From Henricia sp. BOLD:AAB3569 (lineage: Eukaryota > Echinodermata > Asteroidea > Spinulosida > Echinasteridae): DNA of 64,000 nucleotides. The notes under the pieces are model-generated. The model was given only the letters and a program-made list of their open reading frames with translations. It ran no database searches and was not told the DNA's origin. Where the stretch lies: the NCBI GenBank assembly GCA_037783545.1, contig JBBELK010000064.1:186001-250000 (forward strand), given 5' to 3'. The translations under genes and the position numbers were made by a program. Shown piece after piece: positions 1,616-48,600 of the stretch (positions are counted from its first letter, which is position 1; each line of letters starts with the position of its first letter).

Positions 1616-11096
<9,481 letters not shown>

Positions 11097-26000: not shown

Positions 26001-29000
26001 ACGACTGACCGCATTAGGGCGACCGATAGCCGGTCGTCCTAACGCCAAGTGCTTCAAAAACCATCTTTATTAGGTCAAAAACAATTTTTATTAGGTTCTT
26101 AACCATTTTTATTAGGTCACAAACCATTTTCGTCTAGGTCGCAAACATTTTTTTTCCAGAGAATTAGGTCGAGAAAATGGGTGTCAATTCATGAGTTTCT
26201 TTCTGACAATTTTGTGGTTTTACCCAAAAAGGTCGTCCTAATACGGGAACAATAGTTATTTAACTTCTTGTGCATATGTCTAGTGGAGCTCATTTTCTTG
26301 TTTTAGTCAATTACCATTCCTGTCTTTGGTTCAGTGGAGGTTTTAAAATCAAGTAGCATTTTGTCAAGGTTAAAATGTGCAAATTTGATTCATATGAATA
26401 ATGCATTCAAAAGTGGTATCGAAGGGAAATACATGTATATTCTTTCAAAGTGATGGGGTGTTGGAGTTCAGTACATTCCAAGTATATCTCAGGCATATTC
26501 CAAGTATATCTCGGGCATATTCCAAGTATATCTCGGGCATATTCCAAGTATATCTCGGGCATATTCCAAGTATATCTCGGGTATATTCCAAGTATATCTC
26601 GGGTATATTCCAAGTATATCTCGGGTATATTCCAAGTATATCTCGGGTATATTCCAATTTTATGATTGGTGCCCTCTGCATTACATATAATTTCATGTCT
26701 TATATTTGTGTCCCAGCCTCACAGCTTTTAAGCACTTTGACACAAGGGAGTTGGACTAAAATCTGTCGACTAAGAAAGAAATAATGAAAAGTACTTGGAA
26801 AATACTCGAGTACATGACTGGCCTAATTTCCCCCGAACGTCAAAGTAGTTTATAAATTATTCTGGTGACATGAGTCGAGTAGAATAATTTGCTCCAGTCT
26901 CTTGTGTTACATTTTAGGCCGTCCTGGTAACGAGCATATATTGGAAATTTGTACACAGGGTTTTTAGAAAGGCATGTTGTCACACTATTTGTAACCCTTT
27001 TTGGGCCTAAGTTTTCTCTTCAGAACAACTGAAACTTATTTCTTTTATTTTGAGACCAGACAAAGGTATTTTCTGAAAAATATGGTCTGTGTTGCCAAAA
27101 TACCCCTTTACCGTGGAAAGACTCAACTGGATTTGAAACATGCCAGTATATGAGAGTTGGGGTTTTAGTCCTAGTTTGATAAACTATGTGCAGCCATGCA
27201 TGTTCTCAAGGAACAAAGAAAGTGCCCTACGAAATGGCGGCTATTCGATACAGTCTATAAGTGGCTCTTGAGATCAGTACCTGTTGTACCTTTTTGGCAT
27301 GCGCAGGCATCTACAGAAGGCACGACTGAAGCATGTGAATGCCGTAGTCCTTCGGGATCAGCTACGCAACGAGTTGGCCAAGCAGCAGCGCATTGAGGAA
27401 GAAATGCGCGAGAAGAGAGAGCAACAGCGACTGGATATTGCCAAGCTGAATCTCATGATCAACCAGGCAGAACAGCAGATGGTACGGCTTAGGAAACGCT
27501 ATGAGTCGGCCGTGCAACACCGGAATGACAGGTCAGTGTGTTACTTTAATCCAGTACTCGGCATAATCAAGTGGTACGCATGTCAGAACTTGTGCCCGAA
27601 CCAAGATGCAAGACTAAGAAACAGTCCAAGTCCTTATCGTAGACCCCGTTCTCACTAGAGAAATCACTTCGTTCAACGAAGATTAGTTAATCATGGTTAG
27701 TTAATGAAGCGTGCGTTCACATATCACTTAACGAAGATCGAACGAAGATCGAATGAAGAGCAGTACCGTACACATTATAAGCGACCGCTAACGAAGATCG
27801 AATGAAGCTGTGGGAGATCGTACATGCGCGCCGCGCGCGCGTCTAGACGCGCTGTGTGGTTTTCCAGTGGCCCGTCAAAAACAAGCTTGACACACAATGC
27901 GCTTGTGCAACCAGGCCTGCCAAATTGCTTCGTCGAACGAAGGGAGCATTCTCATTACAAATTTGCTTCATCGATTTCTTCATCGAATGAAGCGATGTCT
28001 TCGTCGAATGAAGCTATTTGCTTCATTGAATGAAACGATTTTCAATGGGTCACGCATGCGCTCGCAACGATCCACCCGTACCTTGCTACGCCACTGCGCT
28101 AAGCATGCAGCGCCCTCAAGAGATGAACACATTCACCACTTGAGGGCGCTGTTCAAAACAAATGCATGCAATGGTCATGGCCATTATAATTGAACCCACA
28201 ATCAAGCTGATAGAAAGAATCAGTAATGTAGGAATGCGTGGGACTTTAGCAATAGTAAAATCATGTGAATTTCTATGTATCTTCACAAAGATTGGGCATG
28301 TTCACCTTTATATTAAACAAAGGGGTGCTTGGATGTGCACTAGTGAATGACCTTATTACTGTCAATGTGTATAATAGGAACTTTAGTTAGTTTATCTTTG
28401 AACATACCCATAATGCTGACCTTTAAAGTCTTGTCCATCCCCATTGCAGAGGCGTACAGCTCATTGAGAGGAATGAAGAGGTGTGCATCTTCTATGAGAA
28501 GGTGAACATCCAAGAGGACATGATCCGCAAAGGCGACGTGGAACTGCAGATGAGGGAGGAGGAGATTCGCTTCCTCAAGATGCAACTCAATGAAGAGAAG
28601 AGGGTGATTGGGCTTAAGAGACAGACGCTGCCCAATAAGAGAGCTTTGGAGCAGGAATTGGTCACACTGCAGATACAGGTATTACAGGGGCGGTATTGAA
28701 TACAGGCGCCATTAAAGGAACACGTTGCCTTCAGATTTCACGAAATCTCACGTTTGAGGGTGTTCCTTATACTTATTAAGAGTTGTTCTTGCAATAAAAC
28801 ACATTTAATGTGTTATAATTAGTGAATGGTAATTACAAAAAACAAACACTGACCTCTGACCCCCACTACATGTCCCGCGAAATGTATACGTATTTCAAGC
28901 CGTCAATACGATCGTCCGGGTAGTGGGCAAAATGCAGCGACGAACAGGAGTTAGGCTGGCGCCGTAGCCAGTGGTCAGGTAAACCTATCAGATGAACGCA

Positions 29001-32000
29001 AGGTACCATACCATTCTCCGCCTCCCGAGACATGTGTGAAATGTAAACACGTACACACACACCGACTGGCTGTCAAAAAATGGATCGTCAAGAGAACACA
29101 GCAGACGCGTCAAAAAAGAAAAAACGAAAACCTCGCCAATCAGGGTAAGAATATTGTCATGGGACAAACCGATAGAAAGGACTTAGATGATTTATACCCA
29201 ATGGTTATTGTAGACACGAATTAAAAAATCAGGCACATCACACGAAACGGAGGAAGGAAAAATAATTTCTTTCTCCAGGCTGGAAATAAGACTAATATAT
29301 TTTCTCCGCCATTTATGGGAGTCAAGATTTTGACTCCCATAAATGGCGGAGCGTGCTGCTTCGAGAAATTACGCAAAATTGAAGCATTTCTAAGGCACGT
29401 TTGTGTGGATCATTATATTCTACTTTTTAAACATCTTTCAGATCGTGCTCATTATACTTCAAACGCTTGTAATAGCCCAAAAACGCCCAATAAAGCGCAA
29501 CCCGAAGGCAACGTGTTCCTTTAAGAGTTTGATGTGGAAAGGCAACATTCTCTGTGCGCACGCGCGTGTCATGCATGGGGAAAAAACAGTTGACACAAGC
29601 TTTGCTAAACGTATGATAAAGTATATTATTATGCCGTCTAGAGCACTAATTGAACTTTTTTCTTTGCAAATATTTTTAACCGTGTTTAAATAATCTTGGC
29701 TTCCAAAATAAACTTCAACCTCGAAATCAGGTATTCGTTTTCAAATCAAAGCTGAATTGTTTGTGCAATAAGCGAATACACCGATGTCAACAGAAACTCT
29801 CCGACAGAAACGCTTGGTTGCGCTATATATGTATCATATTGTGAAACGCCTTAATATTCAAGACTTAGAATAAGTCAAAACATTAGCTTGGCTAAGAAAA
29901 TAACTTATCTTTTATTCAAATGTCTACTGAGCTTTTTTACTTTAATTAGTAAAACACTAAGACATAAATTATTGTGGCGTCACAAGTTTACGAAGGCTCA
30001 TCAGAACTCCAATAAACAGCCAGAACCAAATACTGCGAATGATGCACATAGCCACGTCCTCTTGTTAGCATACTTCTACGCAAAATACGCTGCAAGCGCA
30101 TCAAAGCAAAACAGGTCAAAACTATTTGCATTGCATGTGGATTTGCAGATGCTTAGGTGCAGTGTGTCAGAGGTCTTGGGTCCAAATCCCAGTGTGGAAC
30201 ATATGATTATACACTATCCTATGCCTGAATATTAAAGTTCAACTTTTGTTTAAATACCTGCAGCTGTCCCAGTGTCAGGATCGCATGGGGGAGTTGGAGA
30301 AGGAGCTGGAGAATCCATACGATGAGAAACGTGTGCGCTTCCTGGAAGGAAAAGACCTCAGCCCAGCTGAACTCAACAAGAAAATTGAAAGTGTGAGTTT
30401 TTAGCCCGGTGTGTATATACATTGGAGGCAAACATTCCCGCAAGTTGAAACCACTTTGACATCAAATTTGCATTTGCATTTGATTTCATGTAAAAATAAA
30501 CTGGTCTTTACTCTTAATCAAACAGGCAAACAAATCGCGGATTCTCTTGGCAATCGCAGATACTTGTTCCTATTGTTAAACGTCCCCTATTTGAATACAA
30601 AAACCCGCACAAACACCGGTTCTGATATACAAAAGAGATATTCACATGGTGCTACCGCAAATAAACCTGATCACATGTTGATTTCCACCATGCATAGCCT
30701 TAAGTCTTACTTAATATTTCCCTTGTGCACAGCTTGAGATACGTCTGGCTGAGAAAGAGGAACAGCTTCTAGAGAAGGATCTAGTGCATGAACAGGTGCA
30801 GCGACTGGCCCAGAATGTACAGAGCAAGGTGGATAGCGGCAAACAGGACACACTACAGCTGGCTAAGAAGGTAAGCTGGAGTATATCATGTATGAACAGG
30901 TGCAGCGACTGGCCCAGAATGTACAGAGCAAGGTGGATAGCGGCAAACAGGACACACTACAGCTGGCTAAGAAGGTAAGCTGGAGTATATCATGTAGGAA
31001 CAGGTGCAGCGACTGGCCCAGAATGTACAGAGCAAGGTGGATAGCGGCAAACAGGACACACTACAGCTGGCTAAGAAGGTAAGCTGGAGTATATCATGTA
31101 TGAACAGGTGCAGCGACTGGCCCAGCATGTACAGAGCAAGGTGGATAGCGGCAAACAGCTAGGACACACTACAGCTGGCTAAGAAGGTAAGCTGGAGTAT
31201 ATCATGTATGAACAGGTGCAGCGACTGGCCCAGCATGTACAGAGCAAGGTGGATAGCGGCAAACAGGACACACTACAGCTGGCTAAGAAGGTAAGCTGGA
31301 GTATATCATGTATGAACAGGTGCAGCGACTGGCCCAGAATGTCCCAGTGCGCAAGCCACCGACGGACCACCGTCGGCTGGAAAGCGGCCGGTCGGCATCG
31401 GCACACCGACTAAAAACCACCGGCGGTCCGACGGTGGCTTGCAAGTGGCATGCAAACAGCGTTTTACCGCTCCCGAGCCACCAGCGGACCACTAGCGGTA
31501 TCCAGCGGCAAACCATCAGTGGTCTGCCGCTCCTAAACCGCTGGTGGACCACTAGCGGTAGCCAGCGGCAATCCGCCAGTGATCTGCCGCTCCTAAACCG
31601 CAAGCGGACCACTAGCGGTAGCCATCGCAAAACCACCCGTGGCCTGCCGCTCCTAAACCGCCAACGGACCACTAACGGTTGCCATCGGCAAACCGCCAGT
31701 GGTCTGCCACTCTAAAACCGCCAGTGGACCACCAGCGGTAGCCATCGCGAAACCACCAGTTGCCTGCCGCTCCGAAACCGCCATCGGACCACTAACGGTA
31801 GCCATCGCGAAACCACCAGTGGCCTGCCGCTCCTAAACCGCCACCGGACCACTAATGGTAGCCATCGGCAAACCGCCAGTGGTATGCCACTCTAAAACCG
31901 CCAGTGGACCAGTAGCGGTAGTCAGTGGCAAACCGCCAGTGATCTGCCACTCCTAAACAGCCAGCGGACCACTAGCAGTAGCCATCGCAAAACCACCAAC

Positions 32001-35000
32001 GGCCTGCCTCTCCTAAGCCACCAGCGGACCACTAGGGGTAGCCATCGGCAAACCGACAGTGGTCTGCCCCTCCTAAACTGCCAGCGGACCACTAGCGGGA
32101 ATCATCGTGAAACCACCAGTGGCCTGCCGCTCCTAAACCGCCACTAGACCACCAACGATAGCCAGAGGCAAACCGCCAGTGGTATGCCACTCTAAAGCCG
32201 CCAGTGGACCAGTAGCGGTAGTCAGTGGCAAACCGCCAGTGATCTGCCACTCCTAAACCGCCAGCGGACTTCTAGCAGTAGCCATCGCAAAACCACCAAC
32301 GGCCTGCCTCTCCTAAGCCACCAGCGGACCACTAGGGGTAGCCATCGGCAAACCGACAGTGGCCTGCCGCTCCTAAACCGCCACTAGACCACCAACGATA
32401 GCCAGAGGCAAACCGCCAGTGGTATGCCACTCTAAAACCGCCAGTGGACCAGTAGCGGTAGTCAGTGGCAAACCGCCAGTGATCTGCCACTCCTAAACCG
32501 CCAGCGGACCACTAGCAGTAGCCATCGCAAAAACCACAAACGGCCTGCCTCTCCTAAGCCACCAGCGGACCACTAGGGGTAGCCATCGGCAAACCGGCAG
32601 TGGTCTGTCACTCCTAAACCGCCAGCGGACCACTAGCGGGGGTCATCGTGAAAACACCAGTGGCCTGCCGCTCCTAAACCGCCACCAGACCACATTAAAA
32701 AAAATGCAATGCATTGTGGGATTCATGTAACTGAACATATTTACCGTGTAAAAAAAAGGGATTTGCTTCAGTTTTGGCAGTTGTTTTGATTTTTGTAAAC
32801 GGGTTGTTACTTGATAATAGGCAAATTGGCAATTGTCGGGAATGAACAAACTCAAAGTGACGAGAGATTATAATTAAATTTGGTATTCGGTTATAGGTGT
32901 GTGCCAACCATGTGTTACAGGGTTCAGGTTTTTGTGGAGCATAAATAGAAGTCGCGCATAAGGATAATGTATAAATAGTGTATTAGTGTATGAGTAGTGT
33001 ATGAGTATAGTGTATCAGTAGTGTTTGAGTAATGTAAAAGTAATGTATGAATACATATAAGTAATGTATACGACCTAATTAAGACGTCTTTTTCCCAATT
33101 GGTATGCCTACGGCGGACCCCCAGAAATCTGCCACCGGCGGACCGCTAGAGCAGTAACCCACCAGCGGGCCTCCATCGGCTGCCGATGGAGGGCCACCGA
33201 TGGGCGAGCGGACATTTGTTCTCGCGGTCCGCGGGTGGCTACCACCAGCGGCCCACTCACGGTGCCACTAGCGGGCCGCTAACGGCCCGACCGCGGCTTG
33301 CAGCGGGCCTCTATCGGCCGCCGACGGCGGGCCACCGGCGGGCATTAGTACTCGCGGTACGCGGGTGGCTGCCACTAGCGGCCCACTCGCGGTGCCACTA
33401 GCGGGCCGCCAACGGCCCGACCGCGGCTCGCAGCGGGCCTTTATCGGCTGCCGACGGCGGGCCGACGGTGCGCCGGCGGACATTAGTACTCGTGGTTCGC
33501 GGGTGGCTGCCACCAGCGGCCCACTCGCGGTGCCGCTGGCGGGCCGCTGACGGCCTGACCGCGGCTTGCGCACTGGGGTACAGAGCAAGGTGGATAGCGG
33601 CAAACAGCTAGGACACACTACAGCTGGCTAAGAAGGTAAGCTGGAGTATATCATGTATGAACAGGTGCAGCGACTGGCCCAGGATGTACAGAGCAAGGTG
33701 GATAGCGGCAAACGGGACACACTACAGCTGGCTAAGAAGGTAAGCTGGAGTATATCATGTATGAACAGGTGCAGCGACTGGCCCAGCATGTACAGAGCAA
33801 GGTGGATAGTGGCAAACGGGACACACTACAGCTGGCTAAGAAGGTAAGCTGGAGAATATCATGTATGAACAGGTGCAGCGACTGGCCCAGCATGTACAGA
33901 GCAAGGTGGATAGTGGCAAACGGGACACACTACAGCTGGCTAAGAAGGTAAGCTGGAGTATATCATGTATGAACAGGTGCAGCGACTGGCCCAGAATGTA
34001 CAGAGCAAGGTGGATAGCGGCAAACGGGACACACTACAGCTGGCTAAGAAGGTAAGCTGGAGTATATCATGTATGAACAGGTGCAGCGACTGGCCCAGCA
34101 TGTACAGAGCAAGGTGGATAGCGGCAAACAGGACACACTACAGCTGGCTAAGAAGGTAAGCTGGAGTATATCATGTATGAACAGGTGCAGCGACTGGCCC
34201 AGAATGTACAGAGCAAGGTGGATAGCGGTAAACAGCTAGGACACACTACAGCTGGCTAAGAAGGTAAGCTGGAGTATATCATGTATGAATTACAGGTGCA
34301 GCGACTGGCCCAGGATGTACAGAGCAAGGTGGATAGCGGCAAACGGGACACACTACAGCTGGCTAAGAAGGTAAGCTGGAGTATATCATGTATGAACAGG
34401 TGCAGCGACTGGCCCAGCATGTACAGAGCAAGGTGGATAGCGGCAAACAGGACACACTACAGCTGGCTAAGAAGGTAAGCTGGAGTATATCATGTATGAA
34501 CAGGTGCAGCGACTGGCCCAGCATGTACAGAGCAAGGTGGATAGCGGCAAACAGCTAGGACACACTACAGCTGGCTAAGAAGGTAAGCTGGAGTATATCA
34601 TGTATGAACAGGTGCAGCGACTGGCCCAGGATGTACAGAGCAAGGTGGATAGCGGCAAACAGCTAGGACACACTACAGCTGGCTAAGAAGGTAAGCTGGA
34701 GTATATCATGTATGAACAGGTGCAGCAACTGGCCCAGCATGTACAGAGCAAGGTGGATAGCGGCAAACGGGACACACTACAGCTGGCTAAGAAGGTAAGC
34801 TGGAGTATATCATGTATGAACAGGTGCAGCGACTGGCCGAGCATGTACAGAGCAAGGTGGATAGCGGCAAACGGGACACACTACAGCTGGCTAAGAAGGT
34901 AAGCTGGAGTATATCATGTATGAACAGGTGCAGCGACTGGCCCAGCCTCTCCTAAGCCACCAGCGGACCACTAGGGGTAGCCATCGGCAAACCGACAGTG

Positions 35001-38000
35001 GTCTGCCCCTCCTAAACTGCCAGCGGACCACTAGCGGGAATCATCGTGAAACCACCAGTGGCCTGCCGCTCCTAAACCGCCACTAGACCACCAACGATAG
35101 CCAGAGGCAAACCGCCAGTGGTATGCCACTCTAAAGCCGCCAGTGGACCAGTAGCGGTAGTCAGTGGCAAACCGCCAGTGATCTGCCACTCCTAAACCGC
35201 CAGCGGACTTCTAGCAGTAGCCATCGCAAAACCACCAACGGCCTGCCTCTCCTAAGCCACCAGCGGACCACTAGTGGTAGCCATCGGCAAACCGACAGTG
35301 GCCTGCCGCTCCTAAACCGCCACTAGACCACCAACGATAGCCAGAGGCAAACCGCCAGTGGTATGCCACTCTAAAACCGCCAGTGGACCAGTAGCGGTAG
35401 TCAGTGGCAAACCGCCAGTGATCTGCCACTCCTAAACCGCCAGCGGACCACTAGCAGTAGCCATCGCAAAAACCACAAACGGCCTGCCTCTCCTAAGCCA
35501 CCAGCGGACCACTAGGGGTAGCCATCGGCAAACCGGCAGTGGTCTGTCACTCCTAAACCGCCAGCGGACCACTAGCGGGGGTCATCGTGAAAACACCAGT
35601 GGCCTGCCGCTCCTAAACCGCCACCAGACCACATTAAAAAAAATGCAATGCATTGTGGGATTCATGTAACTGAACATATTTACCGTGTAAAAAAAAGGGA
35701 TTTGCTTCAGTTTTGGCAGTTGTTTTGATTTTTGTAAACGGGTTGTTACTTGATAATAGGCAAATTGGCAATTGTCGGGAATGAACAAACTCAAAGTGAC
35801 GAGAGATTATAATTAAATTTGGTATTCGGTTATAGGTGTGTGCCAACCATGTGTTACAGGGTTCAGGTTTTTGTGGAGCATAAATAGAAGTCGCGCATAA
35901 GGATAATGTATAAATAGTGTATTAGTGTATGAGTAGTGTATGAGTATAGTGTATCAGTAGTGTTTGAGTAATGTAAAAGTAATGTATGAATACATATAAG
36001 TAATGTATACGACCTAATTAAGACGTCTTTTTCCCAATTGGTATGCCTACGGCGGACCCCCAGAAATCTGCCACCGGCGGACCGCTAGAGCAGTAACCCA
36101 CCAGCGGGCCTCCATCGGCTGCCGATGGAGGGCCACCGATGGGCGAGCGGACATTTGTTCTCGCGGTCCGCGGGTGGCTACCACCAGCGGCCCACTCACG
36201 GTGCCACTAGCGGGCCGCTAACGGCCGCCGACGGCGGGCCACTGGCGGGCATTAGTACTCGCGGTACGCGGGTGGCTCATACACTAATAAACAGCTAGGA
36301 CACACTACAGCTGGCTAAGAAGGTAAGCTGGAGTATATCATGTATGAACAGGTGCAGCGACTGGCCCAGCATGTACAGAGCAAGGTGGATAGCGGCAAAC
36401 GGGACACACTACAGCTGGCTAAGAAGGTAAGCTGGAGTATATCATGTATGAACAGGTGCAGCGACTGGCCCAGAATGTACAGAGCAAGGTGGATAGTGGC
36501 AAACGAGACACACTACAGCTGGCTAAGAAGGTAAGCTGGAGTATATCATGTATGAACAGGTGCAATGACTGGCCCAGGATGTACAGAGCAAGGTGGATAG
36601 CGGCAAACAGGACACACTACAGCTGGCTAAGAAGGTAAGCTGGAGTATATCACGTACGAACAGGTGCAGCGACTGGCCCAGGATGTACCGAGCAAGGTGG
36701 ATAGCGGCAAACGGGACACACTACAGCTGGCTAAGAAGGTAAGCTGGAGTATATCATGTTCATGATATGAATGTACATGTTCATGGCACTGGATGGCCCC
36801 CAGTTCTGGTGGACATGCAGGGAAGGAGTCCTTAGTTACCAGATTCATACAATCTATTGATACTTTCCAGGTGAACGAACTGCAAGCAAAAATCAAGGAC
36901 GTGACCCGCAAAATGATGGCGACTGTGTCTGAGCTCTCCATGCAGCAGGCAGAAGCTGTGAATTTCCAGCAGCAGGTCCGGACTAAAGAAGCCGAACTGG
37001 ACCAGGCCTACCTGCGGATGGAGCAAGGCGAAGCGCCCTCGGAGTACGCAGCCAGGACGTGGGAGCGCCTGGTGCGAGATGAGAACAGACGCAAAGATGA
37101 TGTAGCCATCAGAAAAATGGTAAGTTTCGGCAAATATCGGCTCTCTATAGTATGGTTTTACATTGCTACAGGTCACTATCTCTCCCGTGTTTGTCCTCCA
37201 GAAGTAGGAAGAGATCAATATAATCACTTGCTACACCTGAAACATTCCTGTGGTTACTACTCACGGCTCTATTGTTCTCTTCTTCTTTCTGAAGGACAAA
37301 CCATAGGAGAGTTAATGACCTATAAACAATGTGAAACTAGCCAATACTACTTTTTCTTTGTTGAGGTTTCAATTTGTTTGGTAGCATGTCACTTTATATC
37401 AAATGTTTGCTGACTTAATATCTCGCTGGCTGCATGTTGAACAATAAGCACTTCTTGTATGGAATTGTAATAACATGACCAAGAACTGTCAAATGTCGAT
37501 AATAAACAACTAAAATGTGACATTCGTTGGTAATATAATACACCCATTGGTAAAGGGCAGGGAAACAGTTCACTGGTTTTAGTGTATTCCCAGAGTGTAG
37601 ACACGCACACCGGTACTAATTCATGGTCTCTAATTGGTTCAGCAATGATATAATTCAGGACTAGGGGTCGATTTCACAACAATTTCTGATACGTCACAGG
37701 TACCCAAATCCATCTCAACTCGATCACCAAACCCATGGCAAACTTACAACAAAGTCAAAGGGTTTGACGAGTTGCGATGGATTCAGGTACTTGTAGCAGG
37801 TCTTTATGAAATTGACCCAAGAGATGATGATAAATATTGTAAGCACCATATGAGCACCTCATGTGGTGGATAGGATATATGCACTATTATAAATACCTTA
37901 GACAGTTTACGCATCCCCATTGGCTGAGACCACGTCACGTGGCCAGTCTTAAACGGACAATAAAGGCCAGTCTTAAACACTTTTTAGCCTCGCCTGCGCC

Positions 38001-45687: not shown

Positions 45688-48600
45688 CTGCAAGGGATAA
45701 CCAACAGACATTGTTCGCGCTAAAAAAAATGATGTCTCCTGAATCAGTTTTGATTCAAATACTTTTATTTGTAACTCTGAAAAAGTGTTGATAGCAATGG
45801 TAAGGCCAATAAAATGAAATTTCATGTTTTGCGTCCGAGCAAATATCAAATCACATGAGGCATTGTTTCATTTTTCATTATTCATTATTTTTCATCAATT
45901 CTTTCAAATAGCGAAATGAACACTGCAGGAGATGCCCAGCAGAAAATGCACGACATGTTGTATCAATATAGCTGACCCATGCATACACATACCGGTGCAA
46001 ATTTACAGTCGCTTTGACATAGGTTCTATTTTTTATTTAAATTTTTGTTCATTTTTGGGGGGAGGGGGGGGAGGGGAGGGGGAAGGGGCAGGGGGTAGAG
46101 GGGCGGGGGATAGAGGGGCGGGGGATAGAGGGGCGGGGGGCGTGGGGGGGTGGTTAAACCATGGTTAAACCACACTGAAGTTCAGGTAATTTTCTTTGAA
46201 AAACTTATTTTACAAAAATAGTACCATGTGTCACTATCATACTCATATAAATTTCAGTCAGTCGGTCGGTGAACGTATCAAGCGTATTAAAAAGCAAAGT
46301 GAATTCTTGCACTGCGCGGACGAGTTGGTTTACGCACGGTCGAGTTGGTTCACGGTCGAGGTGGACTGAGTCGAGTTGGCAAACGATCGACTTGACCTAT
46401 AGCTCATACTTCTATGCGCGCGGAGAACGTTAAACACAATCGTTAAAAATCTCAATCCCATCAAGCCATCAATATCAAATATTATCACTGAAGCATAAAA
46501 TAGAAAAATGTCAAAATACATCTTCCATTCATTTTTCAATTTTGTTGAGAAAAGCAGCATATATTCGGTTGAAAGTCCGTACTCGCCTTCATCGAACATG
46601 CATTGGTATTGAACATTTTCCTTTGCAAAAATTAAGATGTTGAAACAGCGATTGCTATTGGCCAGCGGGCCGAGACCTTCCTGACCTTGGCCAATTAGAT
46701 TGTCGAATACATAATTTTGTCAGCTCCGTCATCGGTTTAATCTTCGGACTTTCTCGACAATCACCGTCGATAGCAAGTTCTGCAGGCCGGCGCTGAATGC
46801 ACGCATCTACCATGGCATGTACATGTACTAGCCCGAATGCTTGGCCGGTACATGATATAGTAACTAGTACGGCGCGGCCAGGCAGAGGCATTCTGGGTAT
46901 GTTAGCACGCACCACTCAACTGTGAAAGATTCACGCTTCGTACGTACGTAGGCCTACACGTCGTGGTACTATAGGCCAGACGTAGTCACACGCATTTTAT
47001 TGGCTTTTTTTTTAGAGGGGAGGAACCAAAACCAATAAAAAAAACATATATTTTTTGAAATAATGAAATGTTTTTCAAATAATGACAATTTCACGCGGGT
47101 GATTCACGGGCATGCGGGCGGTGGATGCAAAACATGAAATTTCATTACCTTGGCCTAACAAACACCACATGACTTTCCGTGTAAAATACTACTTTGGGGG
47201 AGACTGAAGGTGGTTTTTTTTGTTAATTGTGCATGGATTTTTTCAGGTTTTCTGAAGTATTACTGCATCTACATGTATGTGGCTGAAATTGGCTGAAATT
47301 ATCAACATTATTCCTTAGTTATGTAATGCCGTTCCTGTTTTTAAAAGTATTCCAATCATGTAATCTGTCTTTAACAGACGAACAGTTAGCAGAAAATGCA
47401 TAAAACATCACTTACTGGGTTTAGCAGGGCCGATTTAGCATCTTCCCCATAGCGGTTGCGTAGACAGGGTCCACAGAATTGACCCCTGACCCCGGTGCAA
47501 CCCTCGTAGCGACAAATGGTCTTCATGTCAATGGTTTTCTGACGACACTGGTGGCAAGTGGTACCCTGGAAAGGAATTTATATAGACCCTTAATTAGCAT
47601 GAGTGGCCTTAATGGGGGAGCAGTCACATTGTCACTGTTTAAATATGAAAACCTGCCCCCTGTCATGGCTGCTGGTGCAAAGGGTCTTTAGGCTGACTCT
47701 CCGTTCTTTTGAGTTATTTGTGATGAAAGACTGTGCTGAAGAAATCGCGCCAATTCAGGCAAATCAACTTAAATGATCTCAAGTTTTGAATAACTGCATA
47801 AACTTGTACCAAAATAGTCGATTGAAGATGCTGGGTAAACGACTCGATCACTTTGCATAGACTTGTGTACATGTGTACATGTATACAAGATTTGCAACTG
47901 TCCAATGCAATGATTCCACCCGAAATGGTATCTTTATACACGAAAACAATAACTGAAGATGAATTTACATAAAAGTGTGTGCACAAACACTTTTTTAAGA
48001 GGGAGCCTTTACGTGAAAGAAATTAGTTCCCCGACTATCGTGGTTCCAGGTTCGTTGTCTGTTCAATATAACCACAGAACCAGCCTAAATAGGACTGCGG
48101 CTTCGCACAATTACTTGAAAGCATGGATATACAAAATTTGCTATCTCCAATTTGGATGTGGAAGCAAAAAAGGTTGGTGTAATCACTGCACTGCTTTGTG
48201 GAACTGATCAATTAGTTTACAAAACATCAGTGATTTTTTGACAATACATTATCCTTGAAAATATGTGGATTGAGAGCGCCAAATTTTTAGAATGGTAATG
48301 AGAAAAATGTGACAAGTAATATGGTATCAAAATCTCAACACCAATGGGAAAAATGGGGGCGCTCAAAAATGTAACACGCTCCTTTATTAACCACACGGGG
48401 AAAAGACACAGTTTTTAACCGTTTACCGATCATGTAATCTGTCTTTAAATAGGATGAAATGATGGACTTTGACTTTACAATAACCTTTGACCTACCACTT
48501 CAGCATCATATTTCTTCTCGCGTACGCACTCGGCAACCATTTGCAATTCCTCATCCGTGATGTCTTCTGGTTGTTTTACAGCCTCGCGAGGGCGGTTCAT

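Follow-up and report, generated by a model that had tools for sequence, protein, structure and literature searches.

Which splice donor would a gene use when the end of one of its exons, together with the donor and the start of the following intron, has been copied many times over? The question is raised by a 64,000-nt stretch of the genome of the sea star Henricia sp. (hereafter, the window), which stages a natural contest of 23 identical donors: exon definition predicts that donor 1 is used, giving an exon of 138 nt, whereas intron definition predicts donor 23, giving an intron of 132 nt. We consider it quite probable that the array is an exon-edge minisatellite, or "mirage," in an echinoderm gene of the CCDC146/CFAP58 type, near-neutral and with donor 1 used.

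The original prediction had counted 23 copies of the donor AAGAAG|GTAAGC, and the number is borne out by an exact motif search of the whole window, in which AAGAAGGTAAGC has 23 matches on the + strand, from 30865 to 36744, and no further + strand match; on the − strand, the window contains no copy of GTAAGCTGGAG, the donor plus the bases that follow it. The GT of the first donor lies at 30871 and that of the last (donor 23) at 36739. The reading of the structure as an amplified exon 3′ end, donor, and intron start was also right. The unit had been described as about 75 coding bases and 24 bp of intron; it is in fact 104 bp long and made up of 83 bp of exon 3′ end and 21 bp of intron start. The tandem array placed at 30790..36765 is real, and its extent is corrected here to 30788–36759, interrupted by a transposon and by an incomplete second copy of it.

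The units fall into 3 blocks, all on the + strand. Block A (30788..31342) opens with the real exon end as unit 1, with donor 1 at 30871, and contains units 1 to 5 complete, followed by a 31-nt remnant of the unit that the transposon interrupts. Block B (33578..34946) holds the remainder of the split unit with donor 6, complete units 7 to 18, and a 3′ stub, and block C (36290..36759) consists of a truncated unit 19 and complete units 20 to 23. Complete units thus account for 21 of the 23 donor-bearing units, and the other 2 lack their 5′ part. Among the 22 donor-to-donor steps, 15 measure 104 bp, 4 measure 108 bp, and 1 measures 107 bp, the remaining 2 being breaks of 2,345 and 1,424 bp; outside both breaks, the donors stand too close together to hide a unit whose donor has mutated. 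The array lies well beyond chance expectation, because Tandem Repeats Finder assigns scores of 1053, 2476, and 854 to the three 104-bp blocks. A search of the assembly (740,731,340 bp) with the exon and donor returned at least 25 matches, all at the same locus on contig C64, and this exon search, with one locus only among the matches listed, found no second haplotype of the array locus in the assembly.

Relative to unit 1, the complete units carry variants at 15 positions, and several variants are common to scattered units, as in a minisatellite undergoing turnover. Over 24 bases of exon and 11 of intron, no difference separates the 23 donors. The longest invariant run across the units, 35 bp, lies over the donor (P = 0.026, permutation; run chosen post hoc), a weak hint of constraint that is insufficient to argue for selection on the donors. 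In local RNA folding, the mean unpaired probability of a donor ranged from 0.36 to 0.68 when flanks of 60 nt were included and from 0.36 to 0.45 with 120-nt flanks, and donor 1 was no outlier among the 23.

The open frames around the array can be read as one coiled-coil gene on the + strand, running from approximately 20357 to a stop after 38500, in a partial gene model that we assembled by eye. A sequence search with the joined translation yielded 3 Protein Data Bank matches, all of them to CFAP58 (best E 1.7e-25), and a Pfam search of the same translation returned no family. Judged from its predicted product, the gene appears to be of the cilia or sperm-tail type, CCDC146/CFAP58-type; we presume that it is CCDC146, a CFAP58 paralogue, a name with which the C-terminal motif also agrees.

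The source exon of the array (30733..30870, + strand) is complete, with 138 nt, 46 codons, and phase 0-0, and is preceded by an acceptor ending in TTTCCCTTGTGCACAG. As had been claimed, copy 1 alone has the complete exon and an acceptor, the latter rich in pyrimidines. The 13 AGs of the unit are preceded by pyrimidine runs of at most 3, and the 2 real acceptors by runs of 8 and 6. Beyond the array, a unique remainder of the intron (36760..36870, + strand) ends in an acceptor with TACTTTCCAG, placing donor 23 at 132 nt before the next exon (36871..37119, + strand), which has 249 nt, 83 codons, and phase 0-0. Both exons are open frames with lengths divisible by 3. With donor 1, the upstream intron is 340 nt long and the downstream intron 6,000 nt; with donor 23, the latter shrinks to 132 nt. 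The frame stays open with donor 1 only; with each of the 22 others (donors 2 to 23), numbering codons from the start of the exon, a stop is reached at codon 82.

The original prediction had overlooked two features of the array, a transposon and a segmental duplication. The transposon occupies 31343..33577 (2,235 bp), has inverted ends CCCAGTGCGCAAGCC and GGCTTGCGCACTGGG, and contains internal tandem repeats of 60 bp and approximately 130 bp. Its target duplication is GT, at 31341–31342 and 33578–33579, and the pieces of the interrupted unit on its 2 sides add up to 108 bp (31 + 77), as long as each of the four 108-bp steps between donors. The first 128 bp of the element had 40 scored matches in the same genome, including the copy in the array, among 250 candidates (88% to 100% identity), and the transposon is thus a multicopy family of its own genome. 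We examined 16 further copies, 15 of which have the right end; a 2-bp duplication flanks 14 of these 15, and copy L032 has a 3-bp one only, with the reservation that copies L036 and L044 have common flanks and count as one site rather than as independent ones. With inverted ends, dispersed copies in different flanks, and a short target duplication, the interrupting element is a non-autonomous DNA transposon, which may be ISL2EU-like. The second interruption is a partial copy of the right half of the transposon (34942..36277) that lacks 32 bp internally, close to its end: 34942–36237 is 99.6% identical to 32003–33296 over 1,296 columns, with 3 mismatches and 2 gaps. It is followed by 12 nt of filler at the junction with block C (36278..36289), an exact inverted copy of 35920–35931, approximately 350 bp distant. 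Filler templated from nearby sequence is a mark of templated end joining.

These nested interruptions suggest a likely order of events, in which the array came before the transposon and the transposon before the duplication of half of it together with array sequence. In the founding duplication, the join would have run from 21 bases inside the intron to 83 bases short of the end of the exon; read by eye, the exon and intron sequences have no bases in common when the junction is slid, that is, no microhomology. Expansion, presumably by unequal exchange or slippage, would then have produced the 22 extra donor-bearing copies. Later, the transposon would have inserted into one unit, after which a segment of transposon and array may have been duplicated through a templated, error-prone junction.

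The same features bear on whether the locus could be an assembly artefact, a shorter locus having been stuttered or misjoined. Tandem arrays are difficult to assemble, a threefold head-to-tail mitochondrial copy is present on contig C955 of the same assembly, and one lancelet mirage is described as misassembled in a draft (PMC3087553). However, the units differ at those 15 positions in a scattered pattern, 3 mismatches and deletions set the 2 transposon pieces apart, and the array contains a junction with templated filler as well as a transposon inserted, with a target duplication, inside one unit, an insertion unexpected from a collapsed or stuttering assembly, so that we regard an artefact as very unlikely. 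Recruitment of the units as exons, seeding new exons or introns, as suggested for lancelet mirages, is more improbable still. Mirage repeats have been proposed as a route to intron gain, which would make such arrays raw material for new introns (PMC3087553), yet here no AG in the unit follows a tract rich in pyrimidines, and every read-through of the units meets a stop.

The remaining alternative concerns how the donors are used. Their sequences are equal, and therefore position, not strength, decides the choice among them. In a study of human splice-site choice, exon definition is described as favoring the donor nearest across the exon, and in minigenes where 2 identical donors competed under exon definition, splicing went exclusively to the upstream one, whereas intron definition favored the donor nearest across the intron, with a downstream preference where introns were short (PMC9225289). 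Use of donor 1 is expected because the exon-definition minigenes prefer the upstream donor (PMC9225289) and introns of 340 and 6,000 nt suit exon definition. The exon would be recognized across itself, the sole good acceptor pairing with the nearest donor, that of copy 1, to define the 138-nt exon, and donors 2 to 23 would be spliced out, mostly silently, within the 6,000-nt intron. Donor 1 use with a near-silent array would be the most likely outcome, and the array is probably harmless; as a counterpoint, the 132-nt intron from donor 23 would be favored under intron definition. Alternatively, the identical donors could bind U1 snRNP and act as a splicing rheostat, in which a share of transcripts, dependent on copy number, uses a downstream donor, with an early stop and likely decay, or skips a neighboring in-frame exon, setting the protein dose. 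The stop reached from all 22 downstream donors and the lengths of both flanking exons, multiples of 3, agree with this idea, as does the effect of VNTR length on splicing in human ABCA7, a case in which an array of donors does have an effect (PMC5954066). Against it stand the regular splicing of identical-donor minigenes (PMC9225289) and that described for lancelet genes despite their mirages (PMC3087553, PMC3902484), and the invariance of the donor region is, given its post hoc choice, weak evidence. The donors may thus serve as decoys, as the original prediction had proposed, or affect dosage, but we think a rheostat unlikely. Still more doubtful is its fuller version, the echinoderm equivalent of the VNTR in ABCA7, in which array length, varying between animals, would set the protein dose of a sperm/cilia gene. 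A near-neutral mirage with donor 1 in use is the reading we favor.

To place the array within its genome, we considered other repeats in 204 kb of C64, for which Tandem Repeats Finder lists 61 rows, 20 of them with periods of 40 or more; a donor-like motif is present in 5 of these 20, and all 5 are rows of the array itself, in a survey that covers the donor side and is thus a weak test. A kinase scan of the same genome, with 132 matches from the 130 candidates scored among 1,071, contained, by eye, no two matches to one part of the profile within 2 kb, likewise a weak test, in which short partial exons would not score. As for a second haplotype, contig C1013 has a kinase match in common with C64 but is only 101,869 bp long.

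The assembly also includes mitochondrial sequence. Contig C2104 (16,221 bp) carries COX1, which aligns with the mammalian protein without gaps over 447 residues. In this alignment, all 8 in-frame AAA codons fall on Asn of mammalian COX1, the 11 TGA codons are read as Trp, and the 6 AGA/AGG codons are aligned with Ser or other small residues, a codon use that is that of the echinoderm mitochondrial code and marks the host as an echinoderm. A lancelet, which had come into question through the papers on mirages, is thereby rejected as host. Flatworms have this code too but are improbable, given the gapless alignment of COX1. A search of the genome for the GFP family gave no match, and neither did the control genomes, so that it has no bearing on the host.

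Exon-derived satellites that multiply a donor had been thought to be rarely noted, a claim that proves weaker than stated, since lancelet mirages, human exon-edge repeats (PMC2812944), and the ABCA7 VNTR (PMC5954066) are known; a literature search covering titles and the starts of abstracts of open-licence papers found, among the papers listed, no report of such an array in echinoderms or sea stars or in CCDC146. The closest likeness is to the mirages of the lancelet (amphioxus), tandem repeats across exon–intron boundaries described in Adh3, globins, and troponin C, to which repeats in PGBD5 have been likened (PMC3087553, PMC3902484); lancelet mirages are also reported to be unstable in length from allele to allele. 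As in those genes, the unit here is repeated across an exon–intron boundary, and its 104 bp, with variants of 107 and 108 bp, lies within the described size range of 10 to 160 bp, that is, 10 to 72 bp in Adh3 and 150 to 160 bp in globins (PMC3087553). In the globin BflGb9, it is likewise a 3′ exon boundary that is repeated (PMC3087553, PMC3902484). The array differs in belonging to an echinoderm rather than to a cephalochordate, the group in which exon-edge minisatellites were described earlier (PMC3087553, PMC3902484), in being split by a transposon, in being known from genome sequence alone, and in its number of units, exceeding the globin cases with 23 donors compared with the 6 and 3 units reported for 2 haplotypes of BflGb6 (PMC3087553). 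Human genes in segmental duplications offer a further likeness in minisatellite expansion at exon edges: their internal tandem repeats at exon–intron boundaries average 30-bp units in 4 copies, and many are described as altering coding sequence or creating new introns, with transcript support (PMC2812944). The VNTR in intron 18 of ABCA7 is similar in another way, as a tandem array that starts from an exon's donor, with GT opening each unit (23.7 copies in hg19, a similar copy number) and with a frameshift when the next donor is used (PMC5954066); in the array described here, too, the donor of the exon lies in every unit (23 of 23). The VNTR varies widely in length and has been linked to Alzheimer's disease, and its splicing is reported to vary with length, retention of one unit causing a frameshift and skipping of exon 19 remaining in frame (PMC5954066). 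Its 25-bp unit is, however, described as intronic, without exon sequence (PMC5954066), whereas 83 of the 104 bp of the sea star unit are exon. The array is therefore an exon-edge minisatellite of an already described sort, set apart by its echinoderm host and its high number of units.

The 2,235-bp non-autonomous transposon that splits one unit of the main array is itself filled with tandem repeats, namely about 20 copies of a 60-bp repeat (31481–32693) and 3 copies of a repeat of about 130 bp (33163–33566), and the mobile element therefore spreads ready-made minisatellites. Copies of the family lie on contigs C1490 (matches L011–L013 and L044) and C199 (L025 and L036), and one C1490 copy has both flanks in common with the C199 copy. 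Among the scored matches, 3 occurrences on C1490, spaced 5,155 and 5,453 bp apart, have an identical flank. The family thus seems to travel within some larger repeated unit. A further young minisatellite, a 22-bp array of 8.3 copies with 98% identity identified by Tandem Repeats Finder (26475–26657), sits between exons of the CCDC146/CFAP58-type gene that hosts the main array.

In the Henricia assembly itself, several kinase matches were paired across different contigs with equal or nearly equal scores, for example, C175/C720, C1/C888, and C64, which carries the exon-edge array, with C1013 (101,869 bp), as if both haplotypes had been retained in parts of the assembly. Contig C955 contains 3 copies of COX1 (at 7592, 23813, and 40034), which follow one another at intervals of exactly 16,221 bp, and the mitochondrial contig C2104 is just as long; this triplet is a head-to-tail concatemer of mitochondrial DNA, probably produced by assembly.

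Elsewhere in the window, 2 predicted tRNA-Thr(TGT) genes in opposed orientations (5451–5525, minus strand; 5567–5641, plus strand), separated by 41 bp, are possibly SINE-like. Two minus-strand open frames, by eye, presumably resemble known proteins: RuvB-like 1 (6855–7094) and a CDCA7-type zinc-finger exon (47389–47577).
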